Positions 55,525 through 64,000 of a DNA stretch of 64,000 bases are shown one piece after another. This stretch comes from Flavobacterium johnsoniae UW101 (lineage in GTDB: Bacteria > Bacteroidota > Bacteroidia > Flavobacteriales > Flavobacteriaceae). The position numbers and the translations under genes are program-made. Each line of letters opens with the position of its first letter. The first letter of the stretch is position 1. Location of the stretch: positions 372,001 to 436,000 of the forward strand of contig NC_009441.1 of the NCBI RefSeq assembly GCF_000016645.1, given 5' to 3'. The notes below the pieces were generated by a model. The model was not told where the DNA came from and did no database searches. It was given only the letters and a program-made list of their open reading frames with translations.

Positions 55525-58500
55525 ATGAAAAATATGTTATTTGTATTTACTTTAATTTCTTCCACCTTGTTTGCTCAGCAAAATGATAAAAACTGGGCAA
55601 AAGTTATTGCATTTGAAAACGAAGGCAAAATTAAATCTGCAAATGAATTAGTTGCCAAAATTTACAAAAAAGCAACAGCAAAAAAGAATGAAACTGAAAT
55701 GATAAAATGCTTTTTTTATCAGGCCAAATATTTAATGGTAATTGACGAAAATGCCAAAACAAAAATTCTGGACAACCTAAAAACAGATATAAATCGTGTT
55801 TCAATTCCGTCAAAAGCCATATTAACATTGATTTATGCAAAATGTCTTAATCATTATTCAAATTATGATGATTATGCAGTTGTAGTAGACAGCGCCGCAG
55901 CTGTTGTTGATGATGAAGCTTCTTTAATTGATCAGGCTGCAGCAACAATTGACACGGCTGCAGTTGATGGTATTGCGCATGATAATGCTTCGATCTATTT
56001 AACACCAGAAAAAGAAATTATAGCGCTTTACAATAAAACAGTAGAAAATGAAGAAATTCTAAAAAAAACACCTTTAAATAACTATGCCTTAATTTTTGAA
56101 TTTACTTCAGACAAATTCAAAAACGCAAGTTTGTATGATTATGTATTAGATGAAAACATCACTTTTTATAAAGAAAAAATCGAAAGCTGGAATATTCCAT
56201 ATTCAGACCTTTTCCAGCACTCAGATAAATTATTGGGCAGTTCTGAATCATTTTTAACCCTTAATTTTGATTTTATAAAAGAAGAGTATTTAAAGAAAAC
56301 CCTTGAGTTATACCAAAAAAAAGAGAAAGACAATCCATCATTAGAAAATCAATTTGAGCGTGTAAAATACTGTAATAATGCATTAATTCATTCTGATGAA
56401 ACTTTCAGCCAGTATCTAGACAAAGTCGAAAAAATCGCTAAAGATGAAAATCTTCTTCAAAAAATAAAACTTGAAAAAGCAGAACTTTTAGCCAATAAAG
56501 CTTCAAAAGAGTTTTATCCAAAAAATAATATCGAAGCTCTCAAAATACTTGATGAGATTATACAAATCAATAAAAAAACCAATACGGCAAATTTAGCTCT
56601 ATTAAAAAAGAGAGAACTTACTGAAAAGTCAGTATCCATTCAACTTGAAAAGTATATTTACGATAACGAAAACACCAGAACATATATAAGTTATAAAAAC
56701 CTGAACGGGCTGAAAGTTTCTTATTATAAAATCAATTTATCTCAGGTAAAAAAATTTCAAAAACAATCTGAAACAGCAAGAGACAGCTTGTGCAAATCAA
56801 CAATAAAAAATCAAACTCCTGTAGTTTCACAGAATTATGATTTAAAAAACAAGAACGATTATTTTGAATACAATACTGAACTGCTGCTTCCTAAATTAAC
56901 CATTGGGAACTATTTAGTCTATTTTGAAAGTGATTCTGATATTAAAAACAAAAAAGCTTCTGCTTACGAAGTTATTACGGTTTCAAACATTTCTGTTTTG
57001 GCAACGAGGCAAGATAAAATTGAAAACTATCAGGTTTTAGATCGAAAAACCGGAAAACCTCTTGAAAATGTAACGGTAAAATCGTCAACTTCTACTGCCA
57101 AAACTGACTCGAAAGGAATTGTATCATTACAATTGAAAAACGAAAGTTATAATTATGAACCTGTTGAATTTTCGATAGGAAATGACAGTATTTTAATTCA
57201 CAAAAACTACCTGAGATATGTCTCTGATTATGGTTTGTCTGAAAACGAAAGAGCAAGTGCCAAAGTCGAATTTTATTTAGACAGAGCCATTTACAGACCG
57301 GGACAAACTGTATATTTTAAAGGTATTGCAATTCAAAAAAGCAAAAACAAATCAAGTGTAGTACCAAACACGCCTTTTAAAATTGTTGTAAACGATGTTA
57401 ATTACCAAAAAATTAATGAATTTGAATTAACAACAAATGAGTTTGGTTCGTTTTCGGGTGAATTTGTTCTGCCAAAAAATGGTTTGACAGGTGATTTTCA
57501 TATCAGCGTGCAAAGACCAGATGATTACACCAAAAAGGAAACAGCAGCAGCGTTTTGGAATACTACTAATTTTAATTATTCTACTACTTATTTTAGTGTT
57601 GAAGAATACAAACGTCCAAAATTTGAAGTTACTTTCGATGCCAAAAAAGAAAGCTTTAAACTTAACGAATCAGTTAAAATAAAAGGAACAGCAATTGCTT
57701 TTGCCGGAAGCAGTATCTCTGACGCGGTTGTTAAATACAGCGTAAACCGATACACAACCTATTTTAGAAATTATTACGGGCGCGAAGAAAACGAGACTTT
57801 AGCAGTTGGCGAAACCAAAACCGATGCCTCAGGAAAATTCACAATTGACTTTATGGCATTGCCTTCAAACAATAATTCGAAAGAACAAAGACCTGTTTTC
57901 AATTATGAAATTAATGTTTCGGTTACAGATATAAACGGCGAAACACATACAGCGGTAACAACGGTAAAAGTGGGTTATCATGATTTAATTATCGACGCTC
58001 TTGTTCCAAATAGCATTGAAACAAAAGACAAAAACGAAATCATTTTAAACAGCACAAATTTAAATGGAGAATTTCTGCCTGCCAAAGGCGAAATCAAATT
58101 GTACTTTGTGAGTCCGTTTCCAAATAAATTTAAACCAAGAATCTTTAATAGACCTGAAATTGAAACTATTTCTGCTAAAGAATTTGAAGCCTTATTTCCG
58201 TATGAAATCAACGAAAATCCATTTGCAGAGAAATCTCGAGAAGTTTTATTGTTTTCAAAGAAAGTAGACACGCAAAAAGATAAAAAAATCATTCTTGATT
58301 TCATTTCAAATTATAAATCCGGAAATTACAAGATTGTATTTACTGCAAAAGACAGTTTTCAAAATACAATTGAATCTACAACAAACTTCAACATCAAACA
58401 AAGCAAGGACAAATTCCATTCAGACCGCTTATTTTCGGCAGAGCAAATGAATGACGATCCTAAAAAAGATGGTTTTGTACTTGTTAAGCTGTCTTCGGTA

Positions 58501-61500
58501 ATTCCTGAACTTTATATTACTGCAAATGGAAATTACCAAAATAAAGTATATTTTGAAGATACCTTTCATTTGCAAAATCATGAAGCTGTAATTAAAATTC
58601 CGCTGAAAAGCGAATTTGAAAAAGAGATAAAAATAGGATTTGAAAGCATTTTCGATAATGCCAGTTTTACTGATGCCATAACAGTTGACCTTAAAACACA
58701 AGAACAAAAACTAGAATGGATAGTTGAAACTTTTAGAAATAAAATACAACCCGGAAGCGCCGAAACCTGGTCGTTTAAATTAAATAGTAAATCTGCAAAA
58801 ATCGAAGCCGAAGTTTTAGCTTCAATGTACGACAGCTCATTAGACCAATTCACTAAAAAAGACTGGAACCTTCTAAAGCTTGATCCTTATTATTATAATT
58901 CTGTTATGACAAGATCGGTATTAGGTTTTGACATGGCGTATTTATCATTAGAAAATTTAAATGAAATATTTCCTCAAATTGATTTTCATTCTGATGAAAT
59001 AAAACTTAACTGGTTTGGCTTTGATTTTTACAACAGCCGATTTGGTACTGCTTACGCGGGCATAACAATCGCTGAACTAAAAGACAAAAAAGTGGGAGGT
59101 GCAATGATTCAAGAAGAAGCAGATTCTGGACGTAGAGTAAGTTTAGCACTTGCTGCGCCTTCTGTTATGAAGGAAGAAAGTAATTTTGACGAAGGCACTG
59201 TTAAAGCAAATAAAACGGCTCCAGCTTTACGCATTAGAGGAAACAGCAATATAGCAGGAAATGAACCTATCTATGTTGTCGATGGTGAAATTATGACAAC
59301 CATAAAAGATATTGATCCTAAAGAAATTCTTTCAATTGAAACATTAGATCCAGAAAAAGCAACTGCATTATACGGCAGCAAAGCTGCAAATGGCGCCATT
59401 ATCGTTACAACCAAAAAAGCTCTTGAAGCCTTAAGTCAGGTAAAAGCGAGAAAAAACCTTTCTGAAACTGCTTTCTTTTTGCCTAATTTAAAAACTGATT
59501 CTAAAGGAAAAGTAAGTTTTAATTTCACATCGCCTGAAGCTTTAACCGCTTGGAAATTCCGTTTACTGGCACATAACAAAGATGCAGTTTCAGGCTATTT
59601 AGAGAAAAGTGTTATTACACAAAAAGAATTAATGGTCGTTCCTAATTTCCCTCGCTTTTTTAGAGAAAAGGATGAAATTGTGATCAATGCCAAAATCTCT
59701 AATATGACGGATCAGGCCAAAACAGGTATTGCTTCTTTACAATTTTTTGATGCTGTAACTATGCAGCCAATTGATGATAAAATGTTGAATACAAAAAACA
59801 TTAAAAATTTCACCATTTCATCACATGGCAATACTTCTGTAAGCTGGACAATTACAATTCCGGAAGGTTTACAGGGCGTTCAGTATAAAATTATAGCAAA
59901 AGCCGGCAATTTCTCAGACGGTGAAGAAAACATTCTTCCTGTGCTGACCAATAATATGCTTGTAACAGAAAGCATTCCGGTGTGGGTAAGAGAAAATTCT
60001 ACAAAAGAATATACTTTCGAAAACTTAAAAAACAATAATTCTACAACTTTAAAAAATCATCAGTTTACATTTGAATATACTTCAAACCCAACATGGCTGG
60101 CGATTCAGTCTCTGCCCTATTTAATGGAATATGAACACGAATGTGCCGAACAGACTTTTGCACGTTATTATGCCAATTCTTTAGCTTCAGAAATTATTTC
60201 CAGTAATCCTAAGATTGCATCTGTTTTTGAAGAATGGAGAAAAAGCGGAAAACCTGTTTCTAAACTGGAAGAAAACGAAGAATTAAAATCTTTAATTCTC
60301 GCCGAAACGCCTTGGCTGAATGATGCGCAAAGCGAAGATGAAAAGAAAAAGAATCTGGCTCTTTTGTTTGATTTAGAAAAAATGAAAACTTCTTTAGAAA
60401 GTGCTTTTGAAAAATTAAAACAAAAACAAAATACTTCAGGAGCATTTTCATGGTTCGAAGGCGGTTATGAAAATGAATATATAACCAGACATATTTTAGC
60501 CGGTTTAGGACATTTAAATAAACTGACAAAAACGGCTGGAAATAAAGCCGATGAAATTGCTAAAAACGGGATTCCGTTTCTGGACAGTAAATTTATAGAA
60601 TACCATAAAACAAGAACCAAAAACTTAAAAGAGGTTGATAAGTTAATCTGGTATAATCCTTATTCTGATCTTCATTATTTGTATACCAGAAGTTTCTATT
60701 TAGAAAAATATCCACAGTCTGATACATTAAAGAAAACAATCCAATTGTATCTGGATAAAGCTAAAAAAGACTGGCTCAATTATTCTATTTATGAAAAAGG
60801 ATTAGCAGCAATAACCCTAAACCGATTTGGTGAAAAAGAAACTGCTAAAAAAATTGTAGAAAGCCTAAAAGAAACTTCATCAAACAATGAAGATTGGGGA
60901 ATGTACTGGATTGCGAATAAATCCGGATGGTATTGGTATCAGGCACCTATAGAAACTCAGGCTTTATTAATTGAGGCTTTCGCCGAAATATCTAACGACA
61001 CGAAATCTGTTGATGCAATGAAAGTCTGGTTATTAAAAAACAAACAGACTAAAAACTGGCCTACAACTAAATCTACAACCGAAGCCGTTTATGCTTTATT
61101 AATGCAGGGTACAGACTGGCTTTCTGTAAAAGACAATACTATTATTAAATTGGGAGATGAAAAAATCATGACCAAAAAACTGGCAGAAAATCAAAAAGAA
61201 GCCGAAACGGGTTATATCAAATTAAACTGGAAAGCCGAAGAAGTAAAAAAAGAAATGGCTTCAATAAGCATTCAAAACAAATCCAAAGTTCCGGGATTTG
61301 GCGGTGTTTACTGGCAGTATTTTGAAGATTTAGATAAAATTAAAAACAACTCTGGAGCCGTTTTATCAGTTTCAAAAGAATTGTACATAAAGAAAAGCTC
61401 TTTAAAAGGAGACCAGCTGCACAGAATTACGTCTAAAGATCCTTTAAAAACAGGTGATCTGGTTACAGTTCGTTTGATTATTACTGCGAAAGAAGACTCA

Positions 61501-61779
61501 GAATATGTTCATTTAAAAGACATGAGGGCTTCTTGTTTTGAACCTGTGAATGTACTTTCTGAATACCAATACAAAAATCGTCTGGGCTATTATATGAGTA
61601 CCAAAGACGCAGCAACACATTTCTTTTTTGATCAAATCAACAAAGGAACTTATGTTTTAGAATATGATATTCGAGTAAACAACAGCGGTGAATTCTCAAA
61701 CGGAATTACTACAATCCAAAGTATGTATGCTCCTGAATTTGCAAGTCATACCAAAGGCATTCGAGTAAAAGTTCAATAG
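55525..61779 (+). CDS. Giant secreted alpha-2-macroglobulin-family protein with embedded TonB plug-like segment
   Basis: 2084 residues. Seen in order: Sec signal peptide (about 1-18, ending LFAQ, no lipobox); a helical N-terminal part with an Ala/Val/Asp-rich low-complexity insert (about 113-155); a carboxypeptidase-regulatory-like unit (LDRKTGKPLENVTVKSST, about 505); macroglobulin (MG) domains including the MG2-type RAIYRPGQTVYFKG near 590; a segment resembling a SusC plug (YVVDG at 1250-1254, then ALYGSKAANGAIIVTTKKA at 1281-1298); the A2M signature domain (FTSPEALTAWKFRLLAHN); and a thioester domain with C1540-A-E-Q1543 in the CxEQ pattern, inside the helical toroid. Family role: covalent trapping of attacking proteases or periplasmic defence. 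The plug-like segment sits where the bait region lies in classic A2Ms. Monocistronic; convergent with an S46 peptidase gene. Confidence 0.88.
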   Translation: MKNMLFVFTLISSTLFAQQNDKNWAKVIAFENEGKIKSANELVAKIYKKATAKKNETEMIKCFFYQAKYLMVIDENAKTKILDNLKTDINRVSIPSKAILTLIYAKCLNHYSNYDDYAVVVDSAAAVVDDEASLIDQAAATIDTAAVDGIAHDNASIYLTPEKEIIALYNKTVENEEILKKTPLNNYALIFEFTSDKFKNASLYDYVLDENITFYKEKIESWNIPYSDLFQHSDKLLGSSESFLTLNFDFIKEEYLKKTLELYQKKEKDNPSLENQFERVKYCNNALIHSDETFSQYLDKVEKIAKDENLLQKIKLEKAELLANKASKEFYPKNNIEALKILDEIIQINKKTNTANLALLKKRELTEKSVSIQLEKYIYDNENTRTYISYKNLNGLKVSYYKINLSQVKKFQKQSETARDSLCKSTIKNQTPVVSQNYDLKNKNDYFEYNTELLLPKLTIGNYLVYFESDSDIKNKKASAYEVITVSNISVLATRQDKIENYQVLDRKTGKPLENVTVKSSTSTAKTDSKGIVSLQLKNESYNYEPVEFSIGNDSILIHKNYLRYVSDYGLSENERASAKVEFYLDRAIYRPGQTVYFKGIAIQKSKNKSSVVPNTPFKIVVNDVNYQKINEFELTTNEFGSFSGEFVLPKNGLTGDFHISVQRPDDYTKKETAAAFWNTTNFNYSTTYFSVEEYKRPKFEVTFDAKKESFKLNESVKIKGTAIAFAGSSISDAVVKYSVNRYTTYFRNYYGREENETLAVGETKTDASGKFTIDFMALPSNNNSKEQRPVFNYEINVSVTDINGETHTAVTTVKVGYHDLIIDALVPNSIETKDKNEIILNSTNLNGEFLPAKGEIKLYFVSPFPNKFKPRIFNRPEIETISAKEFEALFPYEINENPFAEKSREVLLFSKKVDTQKDKKIILDFISNYKSGNYKIVFTAKDSFQNTIESTTNFNIKQSKDKFHSDRLFSAEQMNDDPKKDGFVLVKLSSVIPELYITANGNYQNKVYFEDTFHLQNHEAVIKIPLKSEFEKEIKIGFESIFDNASFTDAITVDLKTQEQKLEWIVETFRNKIQPGSAETWSFKLNSKSAKIEAEVLASMYDSSLDQFTKKDWNLLKLDPYYYNSVMTRSVLGFDMAYLSLENLNEIFPQIDFHSDEIKLNWFGFDFYNSRFGTAYAGITIAELKDKKVGGAMIQEEADSGRRVSLALAAPSVMKEESNFDEGTVKANKTAPALRIRGNSNIAGNEPIYVVDGEIMTTIKDIDPKEILSIETLDPEKATALYGSKAANGAIIVTTKKALEALSQVKARKNLSETAFFLPNLKTDSKGKVSFNFTSPEALTAWKFRLLAHNKDAVSGYLEKSVITQKELMVVPNFPRFFREKDEIVINAKISNMTDQAKTGIASLQFFDAVTMQPIDDKMLNTKNIKNFTISSHGNTSVSWTITIPEGLQGVQYKIIAKAGNFSDGEENILPVLTNNMLVTESIPVWVRENSTKEYTFENLKNNNSTTLKNHQFTFEYTSNPTWLAIQSLPYLMEYEHECAEQTFARYYANSLASEIISSNPKIASVFEEWRKSGKPVSKLEENEELKSLILAETPWLNDAQSEDEKKKNLALLFDLEKMKTSLESAFEKLKQKQNTSGAFSWFEGGYENEYITRHILAGLGHLNKLTKTAGNKADEIAKNGIPFLDSKFIEYHKTRTKNLKEVDKLIWYNPYSDLHYLYTRSFYLEKYPQSDTLKKTIQLYLDKAKKDWLNYSIYEKGLAAITLNRFGEKETAKKIVESLKETSSNNEDWGMYWIANKSGWYWYQAPIETQALLIEAFAEISNDTKSVDAMKVWLLKNKQTKNWPTTKSTTEAVYALLMQGTDWLSVKDNTIIKLGDEKIMTKKLAENQKEAETGYIKLNWKAEEVKKEMASISIQNKSKVPGFGGVYWQYFEDLDKIKNNSGAVLSVSKELYIKKSSLKGDQLHRITSKDPLKTGDLVTVRLIITAKEDSEYVHLKDMRASCFEPVNVLSEYQYKNRLGYYMSTKDAATHFFFDQINKGTYVLEYDIRVNNSGEFSNGITTIQSMYAPEFASHTKGIRVKVQ

Positions 61780-61945: not shown

Positions 61946-64000
61946 TTATTTAGCAATCGTCAATTCGTCAATAATGTTTTTAGCTCCTGCGTATTTGTCA
62001 ATAAGCCAAAGTACATAACGAATATCAACGTTGATAGTTCTTTGTAATTTAGAATCAAAAATAACGTCTCCAGCCATAGCTTCGATGTTACCGTCAAAAG
62101 CAATTCCAATTAACTCACCTTTTCCGTTAAGAACCGGAGAACCTGAGTTTCCACCTGTAATATCATTATCAGTTAAAAAGTTTACCGGCATGTAACCTGC
62201 TTTATCAGCATATTGGCCGAAATCTTTTTTCTTATTTAACTCTAATAAACGTGCTGGTAAATCAAATTCCTGATCTCCTGCTTTATACTTTTTCACCATG
62301 CTTTCCATAGTAGTATAATTGTTGATCGCTGCATCATTACGCGGATCTGCAGGTAAAGCACGAACTTTTCCGTAAGTCAATCTCAAAGTTGAGTTAGCAT
62401 CTGGATATTTAATTGCATTCAATTTTGACTCTCTTAAACCTTCAACCAATTCGCGGTAAGCAGTTGCAAAACCATCATCTGCTTTTGCCTGATCATCTGT
62501 TTTAGAACGGTATTTAGTCAATAAATCATTAGAAATAATATACAACGGATCATGTACAATCGCTAATGGTTTTGGATTAGCCATGAATGCTTGTATTTTT
62601 TCTTTAGATGAAAAATAACTCATTTCAGCTCCTTTAGTAACATCTGATGTAAAATCACCATTGTTAGCCGCTTTCATAGCAGCAATTTGAGTTGCCAAAC
62701 CATATTCAGAAGCTTTTGAAGCATATAAGTTTAATTGTGCAATTAAAATATCTTTTTCTAACGGCTCATAAAACTCACCGTAGATATTTTCGATCATTGC
62801 ATTAATTTTAGGAAGCATTTCTGCTTTTTTAGCATCATTTTCGTTAAAGTAAGCGATCAATGAGTTTCCTAAATTTGCAGGTCCTGTTGCATAGCTTGAA
62901 GTACGTAAAAGCTGCATTAAATAGTTATCATGACGCGCTTTTAAGTTTGTTTCTCTATAATAATCGTTAATAGTTGGAATTACGTTTTCGTATTTCTCTT
63001 TATTTGCAGGTTTACTTGCCCACTCATAAAATTTATCTTCTTGTTCTGCTTTAGTATCAACCGTCCCAGCTTTTGTTAAAGCATCGATCATACCTTGACG
63101 GTTTTTCCAGTAATTTGCTGTAGAAGCATATTTAGAAGCATACTGTAAACGAACAGTTGCATCTTTATCCATATACTTTTTCATTACATCCATTCCGGTT
63201 TTAGCACCTTCAACCCATGCAGGATAAGCATATTTAATGTTTTGCTCAATTCCTCCTGCCGGCATCCAGCGGTTTGTTCTTCCCGGATAACCTAAGATCA
63301 TAGCAAAATCATTTTCTTTTACACCTTTAATACTTACTGGCAGGTAGTGTTTTGGTTTCAAAGGCACATTGTCTTTAGAATACGCTGCAGGATTTCCGTC
63401 TTTATCAGCATACACTCTAAACATTGAGAAATCTCCTGTTTGACGAGGCCATTCCCAGTTGTCTGTATCTCCACCAAATTTACCAACGCTTTCTGGTGGT
63501 GTTCCCACTAAACGAACATCTGTATAATCCTGGTAAACGAAATAGTAATATTCATTTCCTTGAAAGAAAGGACGAACAGAAACTGTATATTTTCCGTTTT
63601 CGCTATTTTCTTTTTCAATCAAACTAATTTCCTGCTGAATGATTTTGTTTCTTTCAGTTTCAGTCATTTGATCGTTTACTTTTGATAAAATTCTTTTAGA
63701 AACATCATCCATACGAACAAAGAAACGAACATATAGAGATTTTGGTTTCATTTCGGCACTCTTTTGTTTAGCCCAGAAACCATCTTTCAAATAGTTTTGT
63801 TCTGCTGTAGAAAGTTCAGCAATTGCATTGTAACCACAGTGGTGGTTTGTTAAAACCAATCCTTCTTTTGAAACGATTTCAGCTGTACATCCTCCGTTGA
63901 ATTGTACAATAGCATCTTTCAAACTATGGTGATTGATACTGTAAATTTCTTCGGCTGTTAATTGCAAGCCCATTTTTTCCATATCTCTATGGTTCAATCT
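61946..64000 (-). CDS. S46-family dipeptidyl-peptidase (DPP7-like), 5' end beyond the window
   Basis: Periplasmic/outer-membrane exopeptidase that releases N-terminal dipeptides (PgDPP7/DPP11 family, normally about 715-720 residues). The 683+ residues seen lack the signal peptide and first residues, which lie past 64000; the frame is open at the edge (an Arg codon precedes). Seen: the catalytic His in LVLTNHHCGYNAI, the catalytic Asp region GGDTDNWEWPRQTGDFSMF, and the catalytic Ser in GGNSGSPVLNGKGELIGIAFDGN. The residue 18 after that Ser is Gly, the position that is Gly in DPP7 (hydrophobic P1) and Arg in DPP11 (acidic P1), so DPP7-like specificity is inferred. Convergent with the A2M gene. 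Confidence 0.92.
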   Translation of the reverse strand, partial: RLNHRDMEKMGLQLTAEEIYSINHHSLKDAIVQFNGGCTAEIVSKEGLVLTNHHCGYNAIAELSTAEQNYLKDGFWAKQKSAEMKPKSLYVRFFVRMDDVSKRILSKVNDQMTETERNKIIQQEISLIEKENSENGKYTVSVRPFFQGNEYYYFVYQDYTDVRLVGTPPESVGKFGGDTDNWEWPRQTGDFSMFRVYADKDGNPAAYSKDNVPLKPKHYLPVSIKGVKENDFAMILGYPGRTNRWMPAGGIEQNIKYAYPAWVEGAKTGMDVMKKYMDKDATVRLQYASKYASTANYWKNRQGMIDALTKAGTVDTKAEQEDKFYEWASKPANKEKYENVIPTINDYYRETNLKARHDNYLMQLLRTSSYATGPANLGNSLIAYFNENDAKKAEMLPKINAMIENIYGEFYEPLEKDILIAQLNLYASKASEYGLATQIAAMKAANNGDFTSDVTKGAEMSYFSSKEKIQAFMANPKPLAIVHDPLYIISNDLLTKYRSKTDDQAKADDGFATAYRELVEGLRESKLNAIKYPDANSTLRLTYGKVRALPADPRNDAAINNYTTMESMVKKYKAGDQEFDLPARLLELNKKKDFGQYADKAGYMPVNFLTDNDITGGNSGSPVLNGKGELIGIAFDGNIEAMAGDVIFDSKLQRTINVDIRYVLWLIDKYAGAKNIIDELTIAK

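Follow-up and report, generated by a model that had tools for sequence, protein, structure and literature searches.

Segments of the cell's own envelope proteins in the bait slot of Bacteroidota alpha-2-macroglobulins, a mosaic that may act as a self-mimic decoy

Why does an alpha-2-macroglobulin (A2M) hold a piece of a SusC-type TonB plug in its bait slot? The question is raised by a 64,000-nucleotide stretch of the Flavobacterium johnsoniae UW101 genome (hereafter the window), which encodes the protein described in Table 1. Judged by its sequence, the protein is a thioester A2M and by family it would be a protease snap-trap: MG2, PF00207 and a C-terminal MG10-type domain all score above their curated cut-offs, and CAEQ provides the CxEQ motif of type I thioester A2Ms. 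By eye, the start of the protein is signal-peptide-like, and no lipobox was seen there.

Table 1 Features of the A2M gene, in window positions and protein residues.
Feature	Position	Strand	Description
A2M gene	55525..61779	+	2084 aa; MG2, PF00207 and bMG10 above Pfam cut-offs
MG2 domain	57271..57537	+	residues 583-671; Pfam E 3.5e-17
Macroglobulin-type domain upstream of the bait	58417..58707	+	residues about 965-1061
Stretch predicted to be disordered, the bait linker	58822..59256	+	residues about 1100-1244, ~145 residues; pLDDT <50
TonB-linker remnant, weak	59068..59127	+	residues 1182-1201; core ELKDKKVG at 59074-59097
SusC-type plug piece	59206..59421	+	residues 1228-1299; from profiles, solved chains and model
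Conserved anchor ARKNLSETAFF, 3' of the bait	59446..59478	+	residues 1308-1318
PF00207 A2M domain	59467..59724	+	residues 1315-1400; Pfam E 1e-16
Thioester motif CAEQ	60142..60153	+	residues 1540-1543
bMG10 domain	61363..61737	+	residues 1947-2071; Pfam E 1.7e-31

A sequence-only reading of the window had noticed a plug-like segment at 59200-59430 (residues 1226-1302) and had placed it in the bait slot, directly before PF00207. Both observations hold, and the segment corresponds to a SusC-type TonB plug that lacks its first third. Residues 1228-1291 align with positions 41-107 of the 107 positions of the plug profile PF07715, with E 0.004 (18.1 bits) on the whole protein and E 8.6e-5 (23.4 bits, just below the curated cut-off of 23.9) on the excised segment; what is present is the C-terminal ~70 positions and not a whole plug domain over the cut-off. 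The NCBIfam model OMP_RagA_SusC (TIGR04056) matches the segment with E 3.6e-22 and 78.5 bits, a score to be read against a cut-off of 368.25 that is set for the whole receptor, and the SusC signature TIGR04057 matches with E 1e-9 and 38 bits (cut-off 46.2). Six solved SusC/RagA chains match by sequence (E 5.6e-8 to 6.2e-5). A model of residues 1217-1310 has a mean pLDDT of 70, with about 76-88 in the plug part, and its first 21 Foldseek matches are TonB-receptor plugs (ranks 1-9 with probability 0.99-1.00, none with E <0.001). Because profile, chain and Foldseek matches agree on the plug, the homology is beyond chance, though partial. The protein is not a SusC/RagA transporter: no barrel follows the plug, and PF00207 comes directly after it. 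As the earlier reading had supposed, a search of the open-licence PMC literature found no functional description of a plug piece in an A2M; it also found no paper on Bacteroidota A2M baits.

Most of the bait upstream of the plug piece is predicted to be disordered, in a whole-region model of low confidence (551 aa, mean pLDDT 56, pTM 0.29) that we relied on for one macroglobulin domain and the disorder only. Within this linker lies the weak remnant of a second envelope protein, the linker of TonB; it shares 11 of 20 residues with its own genome's TonB (pairwise E 0.021). The piece is strong at the corresponding place in orthologues of the window A2M.

At least 131 of 296 Bacteroidota genomes have a PF00207 match. 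We examined 100 A2M regions, namely the best-scoring PF00207 rows and one lower row; the window's own A2M and one G138 region were omitted from this set, in which low-scoring A2Ms are under-sampled. Profiles for four parts of the SusC N-terminus were made from 19 SusC regions of the window's genome and the window's SusC, excluding L120, which is not a SusC. At E<=0.1 they gave 65 matches in 102 A2M fragments, 64 of them in the bait and one elsewhere, and two matches in the reversed fragments. With the ARKNLSETAFF anchor as the reference point, here and for the per-genus counts below, at least one SusC element (E<=0.02) was found in 33 of 66 A2Ms with an ETAFF-type anchor or close to it; at that threshold the profiles found none in the other 33. 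Among the 66 A2Ms, the plug end occurs in 14, the TonB box in 21 and the N-terminal extension (NTE) in 17, with minimum changes of 6, 12 and 8, respectively, on a flank-only tree (a quick tree; 22 of its 63 inner branches are open, and several long ones carry a flag). A distant group of A2Ms (L096, L099 and L100) has NTE, box and plug together; this trio and the frequent changes of presence on the flank tree rule against a single SusC capture. The bait of one further A2M (L024) holds what looks, by eye, like an N-terminus from another type of TonB receptor.

SusC is one donor among several. In searches of whole genomes, the bait of a Chryseobacterium A2M (L078) matches a 314-315-aa protein in five of five genomes (E 4.8e-8 to 8.2e-5), and the one tested is the T9SS protein GldN (PF19841, TIGR03523). 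With the bait of P0226, five of five genomes gave a 281-332-aa protein (E 1.1e-5 to 5.1e-5), the one tested being TonB (PF03544). For the bait of P0235, one genome yielded two proteins, of 498 aa (E 1.9e-9) and 649 aa (E 1.7e-9), the latter a YfbK-type vWA protein with TSP3 repeats, and other genomes yielded proteins of 495-507 aa; L174, among the donor matches of this bait, is an OmpA with TSP3 repeats.

To avoid picking, 13 of 116 Chryseobacterium baits, taken at every ninth place, were pooled into one query (four proteins left out of this extraction are included in the later counts). Against five whole genomes at E<=0.1, the pool gave 40 matches: 6 A2Ms, 9 TonBs and 25 SusC-size frames of 916-1001 aa, all 18 fetched ones having a SusC plug. 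The reversed pool gave no match in these genomes. Nine Flavobacterium bait parts searched against six genomes gave 51 rows. Five are A2Ms and six are TonB, which was matched in every genome, as was LptD with nine rows (the one tested gave PF19838 E 1.6e-165). L253, which combines DUF2135 with a VIT match below threshold, and the vWA protein L269 account for one row each, and frames of 989-1512 aa for the other 29. Five of these 29 were identified, L270 being SusC-like by profile and the window genome's four being plug-bearing frames. Fifteen phylum-wide baits searched against 19 genomes gave 31 rows, 15 A2Ms and 16 others, among which are a SusC (L244) and two vWA proteins, L245 and the YfbK-type L239, the latter bearing NTE and plug; the frames of the weaker rows mostly start, by eye, like exported proteins. 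None of the identified matches of the three pooled searches is a donor that reads as cytoplasmic.

We then counted donor pieces in the best 120 proteins of each of three protein searches by BLAST (E<=0.01, proteome-size database), with donor sets taken from genomes where pieces had been seen beforehand. Among these best-listed proteins, the Flavobacterium baits (n=119, P0054 being left out as it has no anchor) match SusC in 119, TonB in 70 and LptD in 36; the Hymenobacter baits match SusC in 120 of 120; and the 120 Chryseobacterium baits match GldN in 7, SusC in 5, TonB in 3 and OmpA in 1. A single match fell outside the bait, and no match was obtained with reversed donors or in 44 other ORFs of the window. 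At a lax E<=0.1 with a small database, reversed donors matched 12 proteins for GldN, 7 for SusC, 3 for OmpA and 1 for LptD, and one other window ORF matched; the stricter counts are preferred. The short Chryseobacterium pieces were detected by profiles at 8 bits, with donor sets chosen in the same way, which find at least one donor piece in 107 of the best 120 baits listed and pieces of two or more donors in 34, with 2 of 120 in the reversed control and 0 of 120 in the 410-aa stretch on each side. The reversed-sequence, flank and other-protein controls oppose chance or low complexity as the origin of the matches.

The matched parts of the donors lie at residues 101-209 of about 270-283 in TonB, 107-279 in LptD, 230-362 of about 500 in OmpA and 121-180 in GldN, and the six SusC matches listed are N-terminal, except one that reaches residue 510. 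Pfam places the start of the C-terminal domain of TonB at 197, that of the barrel model of LptD at 254 and that of the OmpA domain at 360, so the matches cover mainly linker or pre-barrel parts; the cores of the TonB C-terminal and OmpA domains are not among them. The donors are thus SusC (NTE, TonB box and plug), the TonB linker, LptD, GldN and the OmpA linker. The window's bait holds the plug piece and the weak TonB remnant, and relatives hold the whole SusC N-terminus and other donors. From these comparisons, the bait slot in related Bacteroidota A2Ms is almost certainly a mosaic of segments from the cell's own periplasm-facing envelope proteins.

Median identities (500 random pairs per genus) downstream of the bait, in the bait and in the 140 residues upstream are 0.88, 0.43 and 0.46 in Flavobacterium, 0.90, 0.33 and 0.75 in Chryseobacterium and 0.66, 0.48 and 0.43 in Hymenobacter; the upstream side is therefore variable too in Flavobacterium and Hymenobacter. 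Among relatives with a ~90% identical downstream flank, the pieces are reordered and differently combined. Chryseobacterium baits have the plug start or one TonB piece at bait position about 20-26, the TonB box, the second TonB piece or GldN at about 48-54 and an OmpA-like piece at about 70, in many combinations. In 12 of 14 cases for SusC and 15 of 15 for TonB, the pieces stand in the opposite order to that in the donor. The bait of P0112 is 73% identical (97/132) to a SusC (L161), and among A2Ms it is 83% identical to P0090 and 63% (76/121) to the next, P0057, while the downstream flank is A2M-like (95% identical to P0057). P0112 may be a young SusC mosaic.

The age of the pieces was assessed by a codon test with the TonB, LptD or GldN of the same genome in the seven genomes searched, which covers only pieces still recognisable as protein. 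Over 256 aligned residues with 161 identities, the identical codon is used in 81 (77.2 expected at random), with dS 1.79 and dN 0.28. Codon sharing at the random level indicates that the copies are old and that protein resemblance has outlasted DNA resemblance. Recent copying from own genes is opposed by this result, and also by the DNA alignments: a GldN piece in G210 is 64% identical in DNA, and no TonB alignment rises above background. That the protein resemblance persists despite saturated synonymous sites suggests selection. In two of six genomes the A2M piece fits its own TonB best, clearly in G202, whose TonB linker differs (57.0 bits against its own TonB, 41.2-43.1 against others), and marginally in the window's; in the other four, another genome's TonB scores at least as well.

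What could such a bait do? The most economical reading is that it is maintained as a likeness of the envelope segments which the cell itself exposes. A periplasmic protease able to cut envelope machines, from a competitor, a predator, a host or the cell's own secretions, would meet look-alike sequences in the bait; its cut would spring the trap, and the protease would be held. When the bait of the E. coli A2M is cut, the trap loses its tether and the thioester becomes exposed (PMC4498604), and where a protease site is put into part of the bait, capture follows that site (PMC9918453). It is this known bait-cleavage mechanism in other A2Ms, together with the donor, control, mosaic and codon data, that leads us to the decoy reading. 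We give the whole statement, a mosaic that serves as a self-mimic decoy bait, a probability of about 0.5, and hold the decoy mechanism itself to be evenly balanced; cleavage, trapping, the choice of proteases and the benefit are steps that we infer. A wider proposal, in which Bacteroidota A2Ms would be integrated-decoy immune traps with a selected, exchangeable bait keeping pace with its donors, and piece-bearing vWA proteins would act in the same defence, is tentative.

Several observations count against a decoy. Similar pieces occur in YfbK-type vWA proteins and in one VIT/DUF2135 protein, which the bait idea alone does not predict. The window's own bait shows, beside the plug piece, just the weak TonB remnant, and in 33 of the 66 anchored A2Ms the profiles found no SusC element. 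CxEQ is absent from all 120 best-listed Chryseobacterium A2Ms (P0121-P0240), which nevertheless keep the mosaic bait; it is present in 119 of 119 from Flavobacterium and 120 of 120 from Hymenobacter, again the best listed. The plug piece, being predicted to fold, is a less evident target for proteases. Only in G202 does the A2M piece clearly track the own TonB, and the Flavobacterium upstream side is as variable as the bait. Finally, the sole A2M-linked phenotype that we met, that of MagD, concerns peptidoglycan-targeting T6SS effectors and not proteases, in the parts of PMC12663445 available.

The sequence-only reading had offered another function, in which the plug replaces the bait and the trap could bind a SusC barrel or TonB, or respond to a cue other than proteolysis. 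Conservation of the plug piece in sequence and predicted fold would agree with this, but the plug is incomplete (profile positions 41-107) and follows ~145 residues with pLDDT <50, the close orthologues L089 and L097 lack it but have NTE and TonB box, Chryseobacterium baits hold short SusC fragments only, and other A2Ms fill the slot with TonB-linker, LptD, GldN or OmpA pieces, which have no plug or barrel logic and so argue against it. We regard a plug that as such replaces the bait to bind SusC or TonB as unsupported, and barrel binding with firing by a non-proteolytic cue as highly improbable. Docking, in which the pieces bind their donors' partners (e.g. a TonB box and the TonB C-terminal domain) and place the A2M at envelope machines, is unlikely to a lesser degree: TonB-box-like motifs recur in 21 of the 66 A2Ms, and in Bt1763 the motif DEVVVTG functions as TonB box (PMC7782687), yet the pieces are swapped among unrelated donors, TonB's own linker included, and the box motifs in baits are often altered (e.g. 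EEVVVRGY, EEVVMTG).

Neutral capture is the rival we take most seriously, although we consider it rather doubtful. It holds that the bait linker tolerates nearly any flexible exportable sequence, and that recombination with abundant envelope genes inserts fragments which then decay. The genome of the window offers 97 plug matches to recombine with, P0112 joins a SusC-like bait to an A2M-like flank, similar pieces lie in vWA proteins, and many pieces are short or degraded. On the other hand, such decay fits poorly with a resemblance to proteins of the own genome at saturated synonymous sites, with the lack of a cytoplasmic-reading donor among the identified matches and with a slot arrangement that recurs.

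The decoy reading can be set beside known systems. The type I A2Ms of E. coli and Salmonella (ECAM, SaA2M) have MG2, PF00207 and the thioester in common with the window A2M, and a disordered bait whose cleavage fires the trap (PMC4498604); the window A2M may resemble them in this disorder, which a low-confidence model predicts, and its firing would be by analogy. It differs in its bait of envelope-protein pieces and in showing no lipobox by eye, and sequence comparison with ECAM chains gives nothing better than E 0.22. In the engineered, man-made A2Mcap baits, a swap of bait sets the captured protease (PMC9918453), whereas Bacteroidota relatives show natural swaps of self segments. Type II MagD of Pseudomonas aeruginosa is a periplasmic trap without CxEQ, like the Chryseobacterium relatives and unlike the window A2M with its CAEQ; it still holds the protease after bait cleavage without a thioester (PMC5764988), and cells that lose it resist some peptidoglycan-targeting T6SS effectors less well, through a mechanism given as unknown (PMC12663445); the passages available from these two papers describe no donor pieces. 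SusC/RagA transporters have the plug piece in common with the window A2M, and NTE, box and plug with its relatives, whereas the window module sits within an A2M, without a barrel. The authors of PMC7782687 suggest that proteolysis can reach a SusC plug once the barrel has ejected it, and show growth on levan to depend on the TonB box DEVVVTG.

Plant NLR integrated decoys are immune proteins that bear a copy of the attacker's target; the likeness to the A2M bait would be one of analogy only, between unrelated proteins and mechanisms. If the decoy reading is true, this idea from plant immunity extends to bacterial traps, the bait reveals the proteins of the cell that are cut by its enemies, and bait sequences could be read as a record of the pressure that proteases put on the envelope. 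It would then be testable what bacterial A2Ms protect against, which the MagD paper (PMC12663445) calls unclear. Even if capture is neutral, repeated transfer of envelope segments into one slot would be an unusual form of modular evolution. The SusC pieces in the bait also explain why some traps bear database names of TonB-dependent SusC/RagA receptors.

Pieces outside A2Ms have their own arrangements. Among vWA proteins of the YfbK type, SusC NTE, box and plug stand ahead of the vWA part in L269 (1-2100, -), which also has an LptD-like piece, and in L239 (1-2463, -), and TSP3 repeats stand ahead of it in L173 (1-1911, -). The VIT-like/DUF2135 protein of L253 (478-3276, -) holds TonB-linker pieces, and the vWA protein of L245 (1-2643, +) a piece common to the A2M bait of L041. 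That bait also has a piece in common with L238 and L236 (57-65% identity over about 55-60 aa), which are large repeat proteins with exported-type starts. In the window, the helical N-terminal part of the A2M contains an alanine/aspartate-rich low-complexity stretch (55882-55989, residues about 120-155), and the gene convergent with the A2M (61946-64000, -) encodes, by eye, an S46-type dipeptidyl peptidase-like protein.
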